Of a DNA stretch of 64,000 bases, positions 18,669-51,290 are shown in pieces (positions within the stretch are counted from its first letter, which is position 1; each line of letters starts with the position of its first letter). The notes under the pieces are model-generated. The model worked only from the letters and a program-made list of their open reading frames with translations. It had not been told where the DNA came from and made no database searches. The stretch is from Auricularia sp. M13. Lineage: Eukaryota; Basidiomycota; Agaricomycetes; Auriculariales; Auriculariaceae. The position numbers were made by a program, and so were the translations under genes. The stretch lies in assembly GCA_037042915.1 (NCBI GenBank), contig CM073194.1:496001-560000 (forward strand), written 5' to 3'.

Positions 18669-18782
18669 GTGTACGGTTCCGGGTTTTGTGTTGTCCATGA
18701 TCATTAGTGCTGGGCGGTCTGTACAGAGTAACGTCTCTCGCAACGCGTCTCGAGAACAATGAACAAGGATAAGTAAGGATTA

Positions 18783-19459
18783 GGGGGTTTCACGGTAGCG
18801 TTTCTGGGCCGTTTCTACGCCATTTCTAATGGCGTTTTGTTTGTCCATTTCTGCAAAAACGGGACCCCGGAACACACGAAACAGTACCGGAAACGGCCTA
18901 GAAACGGCTTTTGCAGAAACGGCTTCAAGTTGTTTCTGCGGTCGTTTTTGGTACATTTCCAATTTTCCCTTGCGTGCGGTCCGCGGTTACTGGTGCCCCA
19001 GCGGCAAAGCCTCAGGGTTCCCACGCTGTAGACCCGCCGTAAAGCTGTTCCGCTCCTCGTGACGCAGCAAAGAACCAGGCTGAAGGTCTCCTATGGTGCA
19101 TATATTGGTACATAAGCTCTGAAGCACCCTATGCTATACTTTTCTCACTCTATTCGTCTTTGCCCTGCTAAATACTATCTGTACAAATCATAGAAGAACT
19201 CGGGATATGTCTATATAACTATTCAACCCTTCGGAACAAGTTCATCGACATAGATAGGGGCCTGGAGGGGAGTAGGGACTCGTTCTCGGGATGGGGAAAA
19301 AGACATCAAAACTGACTGTAAAATGGATTTCTGGAGGGGGGTTTCACAGTTCAGGTCGTTTTTGATGCCTTTTCTCAGCTCGAAATGGCCGTAAAATGAC
19401 TCCAGAAACGGCATCAAAACGGCCCAGAAACGGCCTGAAAAGCCTACCGTGAAACCCCC
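18783..19459. mobile_element. Inverted-repeat MITE with TA target duplication (Tc1/mariner-like)
   Basis: The left end begins GGGGGTTTCACGGTAG after TA (18781-18782). The right end is its perfect reverse complement for 16 bases, followed by TA (19460-19461). Further inward both arms are built of GTTTCTGG/GGCCGTTTC blocks. A second partial copy of the tip, GGGGGGTTTCACAGTTC, lies inside at about 19335. The element is 677 bases with no transposase. It lies about 115 bases behind the stop of the DJ-1 gene copy D. Confidence 0.85.
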
Positions 19460-19594
19460 TATTGGAACTCGCGCGCAGGTGCCACGGTTAAGTTTTGCTT
19501 GAGACATGGCAACAATGAACATAGCTTGCTGTGGGGAAATAGAGTTCCCAGTGTGAAGCTACATGTTTCCACAGATAATGGTGCGGGTATGTGA

Positions 19595-26952: not shown

Positions 26953-28914
26953 ATGGTCACCGCTCCGCGCGCTGCTGTCCTCGGGCCCAGCACGGACCTG
27001 ACGCCAGCCATCGGGACCGTCTTCCCCTCGAGCGTGCAGCTCAGCCAACTGCTCGGCTCCGACGAGCTCATCGCCGAGCTCGCCAAGCTTGTCGCGCACC
27101 GCGGCGTCGTCTTCTTCGAGCGCCAGGACCTTACGCTGCCGCAGCAGAAGCAGCTCTGCACGCGCATGGGCGCGCTCACCGGGCGTCCCAGCGAGTCTGG
27201 ACTCCACCGACACCCCATCAGCGAGGACAGCCCCGAGCTCGGCGCGGACACCTCAGTCATCACGAGCCAGGGCGGCATCGCGCGCGCGGGCTACGTCCAC
27301 GGCGCGCGAGCCAGTGCTGGCTGGCACTCGGACATCTCGTTTGAGAAGGTGCCGAGCGACTTTACGCTGCTCAAGATGCATACTCTTCCGCCTACCGGCG
27401 GCGACACGCTGTGGGCAAGTGGGTACGCGGCGTACGACCGCTTGTCGCCTGCGTACCAGAAGTTCTTGGAGGGCTTGACTGCCGAGCATGACGGCAACTT
27501 CTTCCATCGCGTGCGTGGAACATTCAGTCTTCGTGCGTGTTGAAGATTGTACTGAAATGGGCTCGCGTTTTCAGACAGCGAAGCTGGAGAATAAGCCTAT
27601 CCAGAGTCCGCGCGGACATGAGCTTAATGCAGGCGAGGACCTGCGTGCCGTACAGTCAGTCCTGTCCTTGGGTTGCTCGGCCTAGACTGACCGGCTCCCA
27701 GCCCCGTCATCCGCACGCACCCTGTCACGGGCTACCGGGCCCTTTTCGTTAACAAGACGTGCGTATATTTTCTTATTCGCTGTTCCCTTCCCCTGCCACC
27801 GTGGTCGCTGTTCTGAATGCGCCCTCTTCCTGTGCCCCCTGCGGGACTTCTACTCGCTGTTGGGCCGGCTACCTGCACGATTGTTCGCTGTGTCTTTCTC
27901 TGTCTCACCCACTGACTCGTTCGTCGACCGCGGCTTTACCACGGCTCCTGCCTCTGATCACCATCTTTTCGGCCTCTCTTGACTTCCGCGCGTACGCTGG
28001 CAGCTGGCGGCACTGTGTCACCATTCCCCAGCCACGCGCTATCCCAGAATTCCTCGTTGCTACCCGCTGCCTCTCTGCTGCATCCTCTCTCTTCTGGCCA
28101 GGCAATCCAATATCCGCGCAATCGAGTCAGCTTTTTCGTTGCAGTATCTCGTCAATCTGGTCGTCTTCGGCTTTGCTCTCCTCGCACGGTCGTTCTTTGC
28201 CTCGTCCAACGATTTTGCGACAGGCGTGCGCACCTCTTGTATTGCACAGCCTCAGGGCCGGCCAACCTTTTGCGCAGTGCGAGATTCCTCTGCCGACCGC
28301 GACAATACCTTGGACGCTGTCCACTGTTGCTTCGCTGGCACTACGCTGCGGCAGCCTGGATTCGTCTTGTTTGCGTCTTCGCTGGGCGGCGCTGGAATTA
28401 TCTTCGCCTCATTCGCGCCCGTTGCATCGCTCCGTATCCCTCCACATAATCATCGCGCCCTGTCCTGGTCATCAACTCGCGATCCCTCCCGCCTGAACGA
28501 CCGCTCGCTAACCGACACTCCCTCACAGTTTCACGACGCGCATCCTCGAGCTCGCGCAGGCCGAGAGCGACTCGACGCTGGACTTCCTCACGCGGCATAT
28601 CAGCGAGAACCACGACTTGCAGGTGAGTTTGTTGCTTCTGTCACTGTTAAGCGCCGCCACTGCCGTCTCGCGGCAAGCCATTGTCGCTTGTCGCTTTTCA
28701 CTGACCCTCGTATCAGGTGCGCTACCGCTGGCAGACGAACGACGTCGCAATCTGGGACAATCGGTGCACGTTCCACACCGCGACGAACGACTACGGCGCC
28801 GCGCTGCGCGCCGGCGTGCGCGTCGTCGGCATCGGCGAGGTGCCGTACTTTGACCCTAAGTCCAAGGGCGAGGCGGAAGCCAAGGCGGACGGGGAGGGTG
28901 AGAAGACGAAGTAG
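26953..28914 (+). CDS. TauD/TfdA-family Fe(II)/2-oxoglutarate-dependent dioxygenase
   Basis: Five exons (26953-27510, 27575-27654, 27702-27758, 28529-28622, 28717-28914) encode 328 residues, the usual size. The iron-binding facial triad is visible: His125-x-Asp127 in GWHSDISFEKVPSD and the distal His283 in VAIWDNRCTFHTATNDYG. The Arg-rich RAGVRVVG block behind it fits the 2-oxoglutarate-binding arginine. Other family blocks are GGDTLWASGYAAYDRLSP and PVIRTHPVTGYRALFVN. Relatives oxidise taurine, sulfonates or other carboxylates, releasing CO2 and succinate, and the substrate here cannot be told. The start ATG opens MVTAPRAAVLGPS. The protein ends in a charged Lys/Glu tail. No operon-like neighbour. 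The third intron is 770 bases. Confidence 0.92.
27759..28528 (+). other. Unusually long (770-base) intron of the TauD gene
   Basis: The donor GTGCGT and acceptor CTCACAG join FVNKT to FTTRIL without loss of frame. Most other introns in the window are 45-75 bases. The interior is C/T-rich and has no protein resemblance. I found no clear TIR, LTR end or target duplication that would prove an insertion. Confidence 0.7.
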
Positions 28915-29463
28915 GTCTACTGTAAAGTTCGCCGGGTTGTTAAGGTTGGACGCACATAGGGAATTGGAGAAATTAAAAGGAAATAGACGGTGTAATTTCT
29001 ACACATGTATAAATTCACGCTGGTACGTTTTCTGAACGATCGAGCAGTGAGCGCTGGGCATCGGTTGCAGTTGTCGGAGTTTCAACGCATCTCTTCCTTA
29101 GAAAGTTGCGCACTGTTCACCAGTTGGCACATACTCTGACAGCGGCACGCGCGCATCTTCTGCTAGTCAGTGGTCTGAGCGCCTAGTCTTCATAGGCGCT
29201 GGGCTTAGTGGCACTTTTGGGACTGTACCGCGCCCATGCACCCTGATAGTGATACCGTCACCATCCGACGCCACGAGGTGCTTAAACGGTCCTGTTTCTC
29301 CGGAAATATGATTCCAAATGGAACTCCAATAACAATGGCCAGGGACTGTAAGTGTAACACCTCCGAGCTGTCGCCTGCTTCGGTCCCGCTGACAGACATC
29401 CCCCGGATAAATAGAGCCGTAAGACACTGTGTGCTCCAACAAACCCCCTCTGAATGGACACCG
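28915..29463. other. Intergenic, contains promoter of the 7-TM gene
   Basis: An A/T-rich ATAAATA at about 29407, some 57 bases before the ATG at 29464, is a possible TATA box. Confidence 0.4.
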
Positions 29464-31307
29464 ATGTCGTCGCCTTATCACACCCAGCTCGTGAATCTGG
29501 ATCTTACATGTGAGATCTTACGTTTATGCCCTGGCTTTCGAGACAAGCTCATTGAGCCTCGTGATCTAGACATCTCCGTGTCCCTCTTCGCATATGACTG
29601 GGGTACGTCGATGCTCGTTTCACCTCAAGTAGCTTATAACTGAATGTGCCACCCTTTAACAGCGCTAACTATAGGAGACGAGGTAAAGCTCAAAGATCAA
29701 CGGTAGACTCAATCAGGCTGGACGCTGCGCAGGTGGACCTCATCTGGGCAAGGCATACCGTTGACCGTGAGAGCAACGGCTGGCTAACTCTTCTTAAAGA
29801 GTCAGAAGCCGTGCTTGAAAAAGGAGAATGCTATGTTCCTGGCGGTGCGCTTACTTAAGAATTCGGGGGCAGTTTGGAAGTGCTGATGAAGGGTTTGACT
29901 GATAGCTTCGCTATGGACCCCTCCCTCTTCTGATATACCTGGGTGCCAAATTGATTGGCGGGGTTGAAGCTGTCCATCGCTCAAATCCAACAAACGTGAC
30001 GCTCAGCCCTTCTCAGGCGTATGGACGTGGTATAATTCTCCGACTTGGTATTCTAACTAGTTGCTTCAAGAAAGACTGAAACAATTGTTGGCATCTCGGG
30101 GATGCTGGCGATCTTCGTGCTTGTGCAAGGTGCGTCATCACCATGGTCGGAATTCCTTGTCCGTCTGACCTTCTCAACACTGGCAGTTGTGCTCCAAGTT
30201 CGGATATACATCATGTACGGCCGCTCGCGCGCCGTGCTCTGGATGAATTGTGCGCTGTTTGCCGCGGAGATGGCCACTGCGCTATACATATTTCTACAAC
30301 ACGTCGTATTCGCGAATAGTGCGCACGCCAGTTTATCCGAGCCAATGAAATCGACTGAACACTCAACGATGCAGTGGTTTGTCATGACCGACTATGCAGT
30401 CCGCCCCCACGTTCGGGCCTGGTATTTGCACCGCGTGAGTCCTGCGCACTACTCGCGCCTCCTACGCTTGCTGTTGATCATTCTTCCTGCTAGCATTTGC
30501 GTTCGAGATATATCTTTTCGTGCTGGCGTCTTGGAAATGCTGGCTTGAGCGCGACATCCTGCGTATTCTAGGAGCGAGGAGCATCCTCGACGTTCTAATA
30601 CGTGGCTCCGTTCTCTATTTCGCGCTGTGAGTTGTCTTTCACCATTATATCCCCGCCCCGTAGTTGAGCGCCATTCGCCCACCGTCAGCGTTGCGAGCGG
30701 AATGGTGTTCTCTATCGCTCCATTCCTCGCAGCTCCAGTGAGTCGGCTACTAGTATGCTACCTCCAATTGTACTCAGCGAAGTCTCGTCGGCTCTCATAG
30801 CGTCACATTAACAGCCTGGACCCGTTGAGTGCCGCACAGACGACGTTCGCGTTGTATAGACTCATAATTTTCAGAATGTCCGTCGTAACGTGCAGCATAG
30901 GCGGGTCGCGTCTGATTCTTTCGACCCGGAAAGCTCTGCTTCAACCACAACTGCTATCCTTGGTACCTTTATCTGCCGCTGTTCAATCCGGAGAAGCCGG
31001 TGCCTGTTACGACCCGTGCTCGTCCGACCCTTCTCTACCCTTCGCCCTTCTCTACCCTTCGGGACTCTCGCCTCGCCCTTCCTTCGGTTCGAGTATATCT
31101 ATTCTTCACTCGCTTCCCTTCGCTTCCCTTCGCTTTCCTTTCCCTTTGCCTCGCTCCCCTTCGATCCTATCGGTCTCGCCTCGCCTTCGCATCGCTCCGC
31201 TCGACCCGGATCACCTTCTAACACATTCTAGTATCTTTCTAATCATCTTCCGTCACTCCCTTTCGCTTCCTAAGCACTCTGTCATCATCCTGACTCACTC
31301 CGCTTGA
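29464..31307 (+). CDS. 7-TM protein of the fungal DUF6533 type, copy 1, with LTR-derived tail
   Basis: Starts at the ATG at 29464 (MSSPYHTQLVNLDLT). Short exons give YISVSLFAYDW, GDEV-DLIW, FLAVRLLKNSG and LRYGPLPLLIYLG. Longer exons give SGMLAIFVLVQ, VVLQVRIYIMYGRSRAVLW, FEIYLFVLASWKCWLERD, SILDVLIRGSVLYFAL and SIGGSRLILSTRKALLQP. Hydrophobic helices alternate with short loops as in this receptor-like family, whose ligand is unknown. Exon boundaries in the middle are inferred by comparison with copies 2 and 3. The native stop would follow SGEAGA, but a solo LTR inserted there so the frame runs 100 codons further to the TGA at 31305-31307. Whether this tail is translated is unknown. Confidence 0.7.
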
Positions 31308-31774
31308 GATCGGATCACTCTGACTGCGATCACTGCGCATTCCTGTGTTTCGTACTTCTATTGTTGATCCGACCGGTCTAGCAGTTACCCGAGTGTCTCC
31401 CATGTGATTCTGTGCTTTCCTATTTGTATCCTTGCCTCGCTTTGATGTACTCTAGTTCGAAAACCGACTTAGCAACAACCTAGCAACGAGTTAGCTTTGT
31501 CCCACCTCGCTAGAGCCGCGCCACTTAATCCGGCCGCTCTCCTCGCTCGCCTCGCTTTCTATCGGCACCTTCGGCTCACTCTTCCTTCTATCGACGCTCG
31601 AGTACCTCGATTACCTCTCGAGCACCCCCGTTCGCCTACTACGGGCTCTGGGGGCCATAGGTCATCTGTCGGGCCACCCGTCAAGGTTCCCCTTCTGCGC
31701 CTGGCTCCCCGTCTTAGACATCGGTCTATCGGTCGATCCGAGGCGTCCTAGTCGGTTCGGTCACGCGCTTAACA
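31005..31774 (+). mobile_element. Solo LTR (gypsy-like) with 5-base target duplication
   Basis: The 770-base sequence starts TGTTACGACC and ends TTAACA, i.e. TG...CA with a TGTTA/TAACA terminal inversion. It is flanked by GTGCC at 31000-31004 and 31775-31779, the 5-base duplication of LTR elements. The first 300 bases are a C/T-rich low-complexity run (repeats of CTTCGCTTCCC). No internal gag/pol is adjacent, so this is a solo LTR left by recombination. Assignment to gypsy rests on the TGTTACG start and is tentative. Confidence 0.82.
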
Positions 31775-32228
31775 GTGCCTAGAAAACCGTTTCTGCGTTC
31801 CCAGGTCAATGCGGCGATGATTTCGCTCAAGTTCGACTAACCGGCGTCGCCTACCCAGACAACTACAGCCAGACACCTGCAGAAACCTACAACCTACAGG
31901 ACATCGCTGTATGGAAAGCCGGACTGACCAGCCTCGGGTTTGATGCTGATTGATGCGCGGAGCAATCCTTCGAGCACGTTCCGAGAGACGAATCGACAGT
32001 GCAACAGTCAACGCGGAGGTAATGTGTTACGGCCGCCAGTATGTCCGTCGGTCGCTGCGCCCAGCGACGGACATCACGTCGATGGCGAGGCACGTGACCA
32101 CGTCATGGCTACTGTCTTACTGCAATCATCTCAAACGCTATGAGCATCCGAGACTGGTATTCCCGTAGCCTATCCGGTATCTATGAGCCAGTTACAGTCA
32201 CATAGCCCAGCAGAAGTACAAGCTTCGC

Positions 32229-32440
32229 ATGCGAGTCCAAGGCGGCAAACTCTGCGACTGGCGCTACACGTTCGAAGTGAACCTCTTCAGCATGGTCGCT
32301 CAACTTCAGGTCGCCATTCCGTTTCTGTGCGACAGCACAGAGAAGGGTAGAGGTGTGAGAATTATCCTGGACTCCTGGTCAGCTCTGTTGGCGGCCATGT
32401 GCTGGGTGTCGGCCTCGCTACCTGCGGCTAGTTTTGTCGG
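32229..32440 (+). pseudogene. Short-chain dehydrogenase (SDR) gene fragment inside the long-TIR element
   Basis: About 65 open codons read GGKLCDWRYTFEVNLFSMVA then AQLQVAIPFLCDSTEKGRGV. The W..TFEVN.FS..A..Q.A.P.L block is the stretch of SDR enzymes just before the catalytic serine region. The cofactor-binding Gly motif and the Tyr-x-x-x-Lys active site are absent, so it is a piece and not an enzyme. Confidence 0.6.
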
Positions 32441-32684
32441 GGAAAGCTTGCCGATTGCGATCAGGCCCCATGCATGGAAACGCGGAGATGGAAGTGTGGG
32501 GTAAATATAACTTGTAAAAGATTGAGTGCGATGTTGTGAACCACAACTGCTTTTGACTTGAGGAGAGCAGGTGAAATATCGTGTTCGTGGCCCGCAGAGC
32601 GGAGAGCGAGGCCCTGGTGGTATTCAACTGATCTGCCGCTGTGGAGGTAGCAAACGAATGTGAGGACATCATTGGGTACGATCA

Positions 32685-32843
32685 ATCAAGAATAAACATC
32701 TCAGATTGGCAATGCAAATCCAGGAGCTTGAAAGCAAAGCTGAGTTCTGTAATATACCGAAGAGTCCCAATCTCCTCTTCCAGTCTATGTGCACAAATTT
32801 CCTCCAACATCAGCTGCTTGATGAGCTCATCCCTCGTAAGTGT
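32685..32843 (-). pseudogene. Unidentified gene fragment inside the long-TIR element
   Basis: The minus strand is open for 52 codons with strongly helical, protein-like content (RDELIKQLMLEEICAHRLEE, then EIGTLRYITELSFAFKLLDL). It lies opposite to the SDR fragment. Family not recognised. Confidence 0.45.
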
Positions 32844-33107
32844 GACTCTTCTGACTTCCAATACTGTTGCTTACAACATAATTGAGCTTACTGGTAGAGC
32901 TGCAGCCTTTGCTAGGCTGTGCCCCGCCAGCGATGCCGGCGGTCATTCTCTAAGCTCGATGACCGGACATACTGGCGGTCGTAACACATTATCTCCGTGC
33001 TGATTGTTGCACCGTTGATTTGTCTCTCGGAACATGCTCGTTGGATTGCTCCGCGCTTGATCGAGCATCAGATCCGAAGCTGGTCAGTCCGGCTTTCCAT
33101 ATCGCTG

Positions 33108-46559: not shown

Positions 46560-47339
46560 ACTGACATACAATCTCGATAGCGCTAACGCTAGGAGCTGCG
46601 CGAATGCAGCGCTATTCGCTGCCGAGTACTCCGTTGCGCTGTTTCTCTACATACGTCCCTCTGCGGGTGAGTGCTGCGTCGTCTGACTCCTCCTTTACAG
46701 ATATTAACAGGTATCCAGTCACTTCAGCCCAACAGAAGCATTGTCCCACATGCAACGTACATCTGAAGACTCCCGTCTTGGTGTAGATTGCGCGTGGGTG
46801 GTCATGGATCTAGGCGTACGGAACGCCTCACTCACTACCGCATCAGAGCTGATCTCAGGCTATGAGACGTACCTGGTTGTACGGGCAATTTGCCAGCGAA
46901 GGCTGGCCTCTGAGATATCCTTGGGACTCGGCAGCAACAGCTTACTGAATGTTCTCATTTGAAGCTCCGTGTGGTACTTAACACTGTCAGTATACCACTC
47001 GCAAGACCGCAGACGCACTTAGTAATACATGAAGAGCGAGCGCAGAGCAGCTAGTGATATGGCGATATCTATGCTGCTATTTCTTGCTGCCCCGGTAAGA
47101 ATTATTACCTCGGCGCACGCAAGACTGACACCTTCTTTCCTGTAGGAGTTCACCTTCTGGCTCGATGTGTATGTCCTCGCAACGGTGAATCCGGCGCTAG
47201 AGCGACATCTGACCTGGTTTATTGTAGCCTGCTCCTCGCGGCGGCTAGTATCGGCGGAACTCGCTTGATTCTGTCGGTCAGGAAGGCCCTGCTGGTACGC
47301 GAGCAGGATTCCCACCCTGCTTCGTTGTATGTTTGGTAG
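46560..47339 (+). pseudogene. Broken 7-TM gene (DUF6533 type), copy 4
   Basis: Retained blocks are CANAALFAAEYSVALFLYIR, YETYLVVRAICQRR, SNSLLNVLI followed by an in-frame TGA where the others read RGSV, SDMAISMLLFLAAP, FWLDVYVLAT and SIGGTRLILSVRKALL (interrupted in the reading), ending at the TAG at 47337-47339. The N-terminal third is missing. Confidence 0.78.
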
Positions 47340-47771
47340 TCAGCGAAGACACCTACGTGAAGGAGTGCATGCCACGGAAGGCGAGGGTGCTTGCGGACTG
47401 TAACGAAAGGTACGGCATCGCAGAGCCTGGCACAGCGGAATCAGCTTACACGCGCCCGAACCTTGTTTTCAGACGACACAGTCACTCACGCGGCCTGATG
47501 GACGAAAGCATATCCGCCGCAAGAGCCGAACGTGGTGGTGGGATTTCATTTCGGCATCCGGTCGGCACCAGCATTAACCCCGATGTCCAGCCCTCTGCCC
47601 GCCCATTCTCCAGAGCTTCTTGACGACTTCAAGGCTGCCCTTGTCTTTACCGCCCGCAGAACCAACGCATTTCTCCGAGAGGGCGCACAGGGGCGTGGAA
47701 CAGGCAGGCGGTGGAACGGATCCGGGCCCGGTTTCCGAGTGTGGTTCCAGCAACTGTGGTGGGGAGGACGG

Positions 47772-47778
47772 TATAAAA
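47772..47778 (+). promoter_or_regulatory. TATA box of the F-box-like gene (direct copy)
   Basis: TATAAAA, 101 bases before the ATG at 47873. The inverted copy has the same box at the same distance. Confidence 0.8.
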
Positions 47779-47872
47779 CACCCCCGACGGATCAGCCGAA
47801 AGATTTTCACTCTTGCCTCCTCCCACCACCTTCGCAGTTGCTCTTCGCCCCGCTCTCACGACACACGACGAC

Positions 47873-49672
47873 ATGGACGCCAGCCCGACGCCGACCATCC
47901 CACTGCGCGGCCCGCGGTTCACCTCCCCTGCCGTGAACACTTCCCGGACGCCGTCGCCCACGGTGCCATTGCGCGGCCCGCGTTTTACCTCCCCCCGCAA
48001 CGACACGGCCGCCAGTACCTCCAGGACGGCATCGCCGACGGACGGCTTGCGCGGCGCCCCGTCCACTGCACGCCAGGCAGACGATGAGCCGCCGTCTCCA
48101 CCGCCCTCCCGGCCGCGCAGCAGCTCAATGCCGGTTTCGATGGGCACCGGCCGTCTTCGCAGTCGCCGGCCGGACGAGAGCGCGAGCGGCTCTGGAAACG
48201 TCGCGGTGCCCGTCGCTGGCGACGTCGTGATGACAGACGATGCCTCGACCTCCGCCCCCTCGCGAGACGAGCTCATGGCCATCGATCCCGCGGCCCCGCC
48301 CACAGCCTCGGCCGATGTCGCGATGGCGGACGAGCCCAGCACGAGCACCACGACGCGTCCCACTACATTCGCCGCGCGCCGACATTCAATGGCTCAGACA
48401 CTGCCGCTGGATGTTCTGTCGCTGATTATCCTGGCGTGGTACGACGCAGAGGTGAACGACTCGATCTGGACCGCCCGCCGCATCCCATTCGCAGCGTCGC
48501 GCATCTGCGGTTCGTGGCGATACGCTGCCCAGTCCACGCACCGGCTCTGGACAGACGCGTCCTTCTCCCTAAGCGCAATGGTCGGCCGCCGCGCCTGGCT
48601 CGCGTACCAAGAATGCTACGCGCGGTTCTCGGGTGCGCTGAGTGTCAGCGTGCGCATCTCCTGCGACGCGTCCGCAGCGCCGGCCGGCGACCGCGCCTGG
48701 GATCTGTTCCGCGCTCGCATCCTCCCGCGCGCGCGCGTAATCGACGTCGAGGTCGACGAGCTGACCTCGTACACCGGCGTACTGGCCGGCCTTGCGCTCC
48801 CGCACCTGACGACGCTGCGGGTCGCGTCGTCGTATCACCTCCCGCCCCAGGACTACCCGTACCTGAACCTCAGCATGCGTGCGCCGCGGTTGAGGACCAT
48901 CTCGTTCCTTCGCACCTTTATCGACTTCGAGGACGTGATGGATCCGGCGACCAACCCGCTTTGGAGCGCCACAACGCTGGAGGTCGAGCGCGCGGAGTAC
49001 ACCCTCGGGGAGCTGCGGGGCCTGGCGTCGGTCACGCCTGAGCTGGTCGACTTCAGCATGACCGTCCAGGGCCTCTGGGACACGGAGGACGAGCCATTCG
49101 TCTGGGCACGGCTGGAGGTCCTGCGCGTAGACATCCAGACAGTCTACTCCGCCTCGATGCCGCACCGCATCCAGCTGCCGGCGCTCAGACAGCTCGAAAT
49201 TCGGGACGTAAAGTACAACTGGGGCTTCTGGCGCCAGTTTGTCGAGGTATCTTGCCCCGGCCTGGAGCAGCTCTGTGTGGTCCGCAACCACATGGATCAG
49301 GGGCAGCAGTTCGTGGAGGGCATGGGCAACTTGCGGCAGATCCGCCGCCTTATTCTTCGCGACGGGAGTCTCAACGAGCACCTAATCTGGCTGCTCGTGT
49401 CGCCGCAGCAGCACGGGCTCGCATTCCCGAACCTGCGTGACCTCTCATTCGAGAACACGGTCGCCAAGCCCGGGTTCCGGTTTCCGGGTCTGCAGAAGTT
49501 CCTGCGCCTACGGTACGACTACCTTCAGCGCAGCCACTTGGGCGGCGTCTTCGACCTGCGCTGCGCCTTCAGGCGCCGGGTGAATGACGAGGCGCACAAC
49601 GCGCTGCAGTCTAGCGTGGAATCGCAGATAGCGGGGTGGAACCTCGATGCTCGGCGGGCGTACGTTGCCTGA
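47873..49672 (+). CDS. F-box-like protein, direct copy
   Basis: Single exon of 599 codons. The ATG at 47873 (MDASPTPT) is the first in frame behind the TATA box. The N-terminal 175 residues are low-complexity with repeats of PLRGPRFTSP and Ser/Thr/Pro-rich acidic stretches, probably disordered. From about residue 177, LPLDVLSLIILAWYDAE opens an F-box-like helix set. The rest is a long Leu-spaced region with LPHLTTLRVASSYHLP, LRQLEIRDVKYNWGFW and LRQIRRLILRDGSLNEHL, as in basidiomycete F-box/LRR-type proteins. By family knowledge it would act as an SCF ubiquitin-ligase adaptor; the target is unknown. It is nearly identical to the inverted copy at 57565-59376. The F-box assignment is by pattern and moderately sure. 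Confidence 0.82.
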   Translation: MDASPTPTIPLRGPRFTSPAVNTSRTPSPTVPLRGPRFTSPRNDTAASTSRTASPTDGLRGAPSTARQADDEPPSPPPSRPRSSSMPVSMGTGRLRSRRPDESASGSGNVAVPVAGDVVMTDDASTSAPSRDELMAIDPAAPPTASADVAMADEPSTSTTTRPTTFAARRHSMAQTLPLDVLSLIILAWYDAEVNDSIWTARRIPFAASRICGSWRYAAQSTHRLWTDASFSLSAMVGRRAWLAYQECYARFSGALSVSVRISCDASAAPAGDRAWDLFRARILPRARVIDVEVDELTSYTGVLAGLALPHLTTLRVASSYHLPPQDYPYLNLSMRAPRLRTISFLRTFIDFEDVMDPATNPLWSATTLEVERAEYTLGELRGLASVTPELVDFSMTVQGLWDTEDEPFVWARLEVLRVDIQTVYSASMPHRIQLPALRQLEIRDVKYNWGFWRQFVEVSCPGLEQLCVVRNHMDQGQQFVEGMGNLRQIRRLILRDGSLNEHLIWLLVSPQQHGLAFPNLRDLSFENTVAKPGFRFPGLQKFLRLRYDYLQRSHLGGVFDLRCAFRRRVNDEAHNALQSSVESQIAGWNLDARRAYVA

Positions 49673-49770
49673 GGCGGATGACGGAGAATTTTGTGTCTTG
49701 CTTTCGCGCTGTCCTTCGCTCTGTGTTATGCTTTGATGTAGTCGCTGTGACTTGATGTACTTGCTCTGTA

Positions 49771-51290
49771 GAATCCGATCACGAAATGATACGATGTGGA
49801 TTTGGTGTGGACTGCCGTACATCGAAAGCGGTCGCGACGCGTATTAGCAAGAAGCGCTAGTCAATGTGGAACTCGAACGCACCAAGCAGAGCGCCGAACT
49901 CGTGAACGGGCGGGCGCGGATGCGGCATTGGTCAGCTTTGTGACCAGAATATGGCGTCTGGTATGAGCGGAATGTCGCTCGAAAATGCGAAGGTCGACAG
50001 ACGTAGACGTTGCATACGAGGGGGAAGAGCTTCTGAAAGAATAAGAATGGGTAGTATGTCTTATCTTGACAGCATCTTAGCGTCGTAGCAGCCTCGAGGG
50101 ACAGGATTCCGATGAGGCCCACTGTGGAACCCTGACCGGCCGAAAAGCGCGCGCTCTTTCCACCAGCCTCCAGAATGAATTCAGCCATCCTCTGGCCGTT
50201 TTGAAACCATGCCTGACGATTTTGTGCCGTCCATTACGGACAATAAAATAGCAGTTTTTGACACATTCCTCCAGTCCCCCGAAGCACGCTCGGAAACGAA
50301 AAACTGACTTCGGCCGGCTGGATTTTTATACTGCTATGAGACTCATTCGGGGTCCTTCAAAAGGCTTTCCCAATCGCCCTTCCCAGACCTTACTGTGACG
50401 TGACAAAAGTAGCAACAATAGTCAATTCTGCCATTACTAATTTACATTCTCATGATGTGACTCTGCTTCCAGCACACACAACAGCTCCAGGCGGCCATCT
50501 TCTGTGGGGGCTGTAGTCAGCACAAGCACATAGAGGTAGGAAGAAGGATGCATACCTGCAAAGGTTCAGGACCTTGGTGGCAATCACGGCTAGAGACGAT
50601 AGTGAGGCTCAGAATGTCAACATGCTTTAGTCGGACAAAAGCTGCACTTATATACCTGAGGACCTAGAGCCAAAATCCGAGTACAAGTCAAGCTCCGCCC
50701 AAGGTCTGGAAGGCGGTGGCCAGATGGAGATTGGCGAGACCGATGCTGCGGCATTCGGTCAGGGCTCGCTTCGGAACCTCCTCACAGGCTCCGAGATTCA
50801 TGGCTCCGTAAGCGCTCCGTCAGACCGACGCTGAACAGCGTCCATGCACGTCCATGAGTTTCCCCTGATGAGCAAAGAATGTCATCTTCTTCAAACAGTC
50901 ATAAACTGTTAAACCCCACCTCTACGAGGAGTCTTTCAGTGATAACTGTCACTGCCGTCAATTCCACCGAAAATCCGGCGGAATCTCGACCGGGGACGAA
51001 TCAAGCTCTTTCCGCCAGACACCGGCCGAAAGTGGAATATCTCGCGTCTACCGGTTGCTGACCGGTGCAAGATCGCGCGGACTGGGTTCCACAGTGGCCG
51101 CGCGCCATCCTGCAAAGCAAAAGAAGATGGTGTGCAATCTTCGACCGTTCGACCGTCTGTGCATGCAACGCCGCACAAAGCTCATGAACAAGTCGTTTGA
51201 TTCAAAGCGAATGCCTTGGGTAACTAGTTCCTACAACAGGGAAAAGTTCAACAGCACAGAGTCCCAGTAAAATCACACGGAAACAAGAGT
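49771..51290. other. Intergenic, one weak minus-strand candidate
   Basis: At about 50188-49860 on the minus strand, MAEFILEAGGKSARFSAGQG opens a 114-codon frame that could also splice at GTCAAG...TTTCAG. No family recognised and no promoter seen. The rest is A/T-richer and empty. Confidence 0.3.

Follow-up and report, generated by a model that had tools for sequence, protein, structure and literature searches.

What becomes of a gene when a transposable element (TE) lands at its stop codon? A locus in the window (the whole 64,000-nucleotide stretch of DNA analysed here) raises this question, as an initial annotation had proposed that a solo LTR removed the stop of a seven-transmembrane (7-TM) protein gene and gave the protein a new tail. 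In alleles in which a TE has inserted at the 3' end of a gene, the TE brings a new stop and possibly 3' signals. The window case is alike in both respects, but it extends the coding sequence instead of truncating it, if the TAG beyond the LTR is the old stop. Direct reading of positions 31000-31782 gave the order GTGCC, TGTTACG...GCTTAACA, GTGCC, TAG, which bears out the proposed LTR between two copies of GTGCC. The features at the site are:

31005..31774, strand +: solo LTR of 770 bp, TGTTACG...TTAACA, recognised from 21 genomic copies, its ends and target duplications
31000..31004, strand. : 5' copy of the target-site duplication GTGCC, from sequence reading
31775..31779, strand. : 3' copy of the target-site duplication GTGCC, from sequence reading
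31780..31782, strand +: TAG right after the 3' duplication, the probable displaced stop; the empty homologous site has GCG in its place

A search for further copies of the LTR in the genome to which the window belongs (52.1 Mb in 14 contigs) gave at least 21, including the window copy, at 90-100% identity; this count is a lower bound for copies at ≥90% identity. All 21 start with TGTTA and end with TTAACA. Seventeen are solo, and four form two pairs (L036 and L037). The 5-bp target duplication is perfect in 15 of the 17 solo copies, the window copy among them, and matches at four of five positions in the other two. Both L036 and L037 are LTR-internal-LTR elements with the same LTR sequence as the solo copies, identical internal ends and a run of G, GGGGGGATAC, ahead of the 3' LTR. 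The LTR pair of L037 is 99.6% identical and flanked by a matching outer duplication (atgca), while that of L036 is 94.9% identical with unlike outer flanks. These dispersed copies, common ends, target duplications and paired-LTR elements confirmed that the insertion is a solo LTR.

At L036 and L037 we listed 19 ORFs of at least 120 aa, and nine of them, in or overlapping the internal parts, were scanned for gag-pol, with no Pfam match at E ≤ 0.1. Hence the LTR family looks non-autonomous, as judged on these two elements. Non-coding LTR elements of the TRIM/LARD type are reported from three of five genomes compared in PMC5689174. The present family is alike in its two pairs, whose internal parts measure about 1.4 and 2.3 kb (L036 and L037), and in the nine ORFs without a Pfam match. 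It differs in that its LTRs, at 735-773 bp, are long for TRIMs. From a fission yeast, PMC10085805 describes a solo LTR whose 5-bp duplication is perfect. The window copy resembles the solo LTRs of fungal LTR retrotransposons in its TG...CA ends, its 5-bp duplication and its membership of a family with both solo and paired copies, but differs from them in sitting inside a coding exon.

Two other copies of the family also lie in open frames. One (L006, C2:376320-377071) sits within a long ORF, by eye that of a retrotransposon polyprotein, with 475 open codons upstream; a second empty site was not obtained there (C2:376320), the flank being a dispersed repeat that recurs elsewhere at 77-80%. The other (L039, C1:4320936-4321688) is a solo LTR that breaks a frame which, read across its empty site, is open for about 330 codons and which would now end with a 26-codon tail.

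Which gene, then, did the LTR enter? We built a gene model by eye from the exon pattern of the paralogues L010 and L013; two neighbouring paralogues lie on the same contig, at C2:532.6k and 535.2k.

29464..31307, strand +: predicted 12-exon DUF6533 (7-TM-type) gene running into the LTR, a hand model from paralogues
29464-29509, 29570-29602, 29663-29682, 29733-29747, 29800-29844, 29906-30018, strand +: exons 1-6 of the model
30071-30129, 30187-30318, 30375-30434, 30494-30626, 30689-30737, 30801-31307, strand +: exons 7-12 of the model
30801..31004, strand +: last coding exon, host portion (RHINSLDPLSAAQ...SRLILSTRKALLQPQ...SGEAGA), from by-eye alignment with paralogues

Translation of the hand model keeps all twelve exons open and in phase. 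Its introns measure 50-63 nt, ten of the eleven being GT-AG and one GC-AG (donor 29748), and the predicted protein has 403 codons with the LTR tail and 303 without. The spliced model matches PF20151 (DUF6533) at 37 bits against a cut-off of 24.1 (E = 3.6e-9, residues 18-59), whereas a Pfam scan of the three unspliced ORFs of the gene gave no match. We rejected the idea that the LTR interrupts a non-gene, since the spliced model matches DUF6533 although the unspliced ORFs do not. A frameshift near exon 11, raised by a by-eye comparison of phases, was also discarded, as the acceptor ending at 30800 (catag) removes the problem, and so was a start of exon 1 at 29454, which breaks the phase that 29464 keeps. 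By eye, the counterparts of the last exon are ICAFSALRTLTQ...SIGGTHLILSMREALL in L010 and SIGSTRLILSVRKALL in L013, and from 30801 the window exon reads SIGGSRLILSTRKALL against SIGGTHLILSMREALL and SIGSTRLILSVRKALL. Query residues 212-287 match C2:533171-533404 at 39%. As the last exon matches that of the paralogues, the reading frame that the initial annotation had used at the junction was correct.

PMC10949477 presents DUF6533 as a short region, specific to basidiomycetes, that occurs in integral membrane proteins, and SNB1 of Coprinopsis as having seven predicted helices and a C-terminus inside the cell; PMC8955403 names DUF6533 in a list. The window protein is alike in carrying the domain over its cut-off and hydrophobic segments throughout, but differs in its predicted, LTR-encoded C-terminal tail; we liken it to these proteins by domain and not as an orthologue of SNB1. 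In a Kyte-Doolittle plot, about six to seven hydrophobic regions precede the tail, which itself has one weak region. With its open model, paralogue-like structure and DUF6533 match, the host gene looks real, and the model supports placing the LTR in its last coding exon, in sense orientation. The initial annotation is supported in putting the LTR on a gene of the 7-TM type, within its final coding exon. The insertion itself has good support, as do the gene model and the predicted 403-residue reading.

Beyond the junction, the frame continues into the LTR:

31005..31307, strand +: predicted LTR-encoded tail of 100 codons plus TGA, from frame translation

Translation agrees with the proposed run of 100 codons up to the TGA at 31305-31307, and residue counts agree with its description as rich in Ser, Pro, Leu and Phe (per 100 residues, 21 S, 17 L, 15 P, 9 I and 7 F). 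Whether this is a special event is another matter. When all three frames of the 17 solo copies were read, 47 of 51 stayed open for 66-118 codons, and the other four closed after 2, 23, 26 and 47 codons; the register differs among LTR copies. When the first 312 bases of the LTR were shuffled, 21% of the trials gave a frame open for at least 100 codons and 34% one open for at least 69; for random + strand positions of the window the shares were 11% and 21%, respectively. Taken alone, the open frame in the LTR is not more than chance. The TGA that fixes the tail at 100 codons is private to the window copy, base 31305 being T there and C in all 20 other copies, and without it the next in-frame stop would come at 31365. 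Hence the frame is open as proposed, but similar tails arise in 47 of 51 frames and the stop is private. The tail is generic, roughly what this LTR would give most genes it entered, because the start of the LTR is C/T-rich. One could also suppose that the LTR family is kept as a soft-landing module, with selection on its stop-poor, C/T-rich start to make the tails from sense insertions into exons tolerable, and the 47 open frames fit that idea. It is nevertheless very improbable, as composition explains much of the openness (34% of shuffles reach 69 codons), the register varies among copies and four frames shut early.

An unoccupied version of the site exists in the same assembly. Most of window 20551-64000 has a homologue on the same contig, at C2:261054-302013 (copy A), in which the site lies about 257 kb from that of the window. 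Matching pieces occur at C2:112k/460k, 120k/480k, 172k/510k, 261k/516.5k, 302k/560k and 329-338k/594-602k, and copy A is either an allele, the assembly having retained a second haplotype, or a segmental duplicate in tandem. Many presence/absence differences separate window 20551-64000 from copy A. The alignment has eight main collinear blocks, with identities of 93.5-97.5% in five and 86-90% in the remaining three. A repeat of about 685 bp at window 18779-19468 (C2:514779-515468), with seven further genome copies at 97-98%, is absent from the homologous copy at C2:176.4k.

28355-29118, 30520-31004 and 47041-50119: blocks at 86-90% identity in the alignment of window and copy A
29119..30519, strand +: stretch with 5' exons missing from copy A at C2:269240-269243, from the alignment; paralogues keep such exons

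The BLAST alignment of window and copy A ends exactly at 31004, and the empty homologous site lies near C2:269698. There copy A reads GCCGGCGCC GCG AAAACCG, where the window without its LTR reads GCCGGTGCC TAG AAAACCG, which shows the insertion as a difference between the two copies. In addition to the missing exons, copy A is short of 19 bases of the last exon; both gaps were read as losses in copy A because the paralogues keep both, by eye. On this alignment, copy A is a broken, diverged pseudogene. Over 30520-31004 the copies are 86% identical when gaps are included, and 42 of the 459 aligned bases (about 9%) are mismatched; at the neighbouring paralogue loci the identity between the copies, leaving gaps aside, is 98.3% and 98.8%. 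More broadly, identity within window 28355-31004 is 90% and 86% (gaps counted) against 95-97.5% in the flanking blocks. The 119 shared codons hold 20 nonsynonymous and 11 synonymous differences, eight gapped codons set aside, and in two introns 14 of 125 positions are unlike; there is no sign of strong constraint on the shared part of the gene. The window LTR has eight private substitutions in 770 bases (about 1%) plus 17 gap columns, a change being called private when at least 19 of the 20 other copies agree. Just upstream, the two copies differ by mismatches at about 9% of bases, and given the lower figure for the LTR we take the insertion to be younger than their split.

Was the TAG the old stop? 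Without the LTR and one duplication, GCC GGT GCC TAG remains, as first described, and the protein would end SGEAGA. That the LTR removed a stop thus has the TAG directly after GTGCC in its favour, but the sole empty site found reads GCG, which is formally at odds with the TAG that the initial annotation expected there. The codon of copy A says little about the original, since a pseudogene is freed from constraint and is only 86% identical here. The frame past the TAG stays open for 56 more codons, to a TGA at 31951-31953; such openness is not rare, as 21% of random window frames are open for at least 69 codons. Counted by eye, the tail after the conserved ALL motif has 57 residues in L010, 29 in L013 and 21 in the window gene. 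The longer paralogue tails could not be aligned by eye and therefore do not show where the protein first ended. In the comparison of the window with copy A, seven gap events fall in the first ~120 columns past the TAG, where a forced end-to-end alignment of dissimilar DNA was used, and three in the 485 columns before it, as expected if coding ended there. An alternative is that the frame once ran the ~56 codons further, that the LTR cut the C-terminus and that the TAG came later. The GCG of copy A, the 56 open codons and the longer paralogue tails fit this account, but the pseudogene is a poor guide, frame-breaking gaps crowd soon past the TAG, and the downstream frame has by eye no residue-level match to the paralogue tails. 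We regard this account as unlikely, and the TAG as probably the original stop of the host gene. If it was displaced, an intact empty allele would read GCCGGTGCCTAG (or another stop). Just downstream of the gene, window 31910-33101 holds 138-bp inverted repeats, 86% alike and 916 bp apart, a possible TIR element, and a peptide stretch similar to this region recurs in L036.

We thus favour, with a probability of about 0.7, the following course of events. An element from a short LTR family, whose scanned ORFs gave no pol domain, would have inserted in sense orientation just before the probable stop. The gene entered, in its last exon, would code for a DUF6533 membrane protein of the seven-helix type and is otherwise intact. 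Recombination between the LTRs of the element would then have left the solo LTR. Transcription into the LTR would carry translation past the old end for 100 Ser/Pro/Leu/Phe-rich codons to the TGA, giving a predicted product of 403 instead of 303 residues, with a cytoplasmic tail if the topology is like the one predicted for SNB1, a member of the family. This extension would be an incidental product of the C/T-rich 5' part of the LTR, probably without a selected function.

The allele might instead be silenced or null, with a transcript that ends in the LTR before the TGA at 31305 (non-stop decay) or an unstable protein, and so no tail. LTRs of replicating elements bring their own 3'-end signals, the gene looks dispensable, copy A being already without it, and the shared exons diverge about as much as the introns. 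Against this, all 12 exons are still open, and none of six distinct hexamers scanned for poly(A)-like and TATAAA-like signals is present in the window LTR, although fungal poly(A) signals are loose. A silenced or null allele is possible, if doubtful. That the tailed protein is made and works, with an LTR-derived, Ser/Pro-rich cytoplasmic tail that may be phosphorylated as a new C-terminus, is very improbable. A dispensable gene with a tolerated insertion is the simplest reading, because the other copy lost the gene. The locus is thus a well-documented but ordinary insertion allele, and insertion before a probable stop with an incidental tail remains our preferred reading of it.

Claims of this kind need two controls, namely whether the composition of the repeat opens frames in any gene entered and whether the new stop is common to other copies of the repeat. 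The locus provides a clean, testable case of a transposon remnant that may give a protein a different end, and its filled and empty sites stand on one contig. Of the two copies of the locus found, the more complete one would, if the tailed protein is made and works, encode a DUF6533 receptor-like protein with a new C-terminus.
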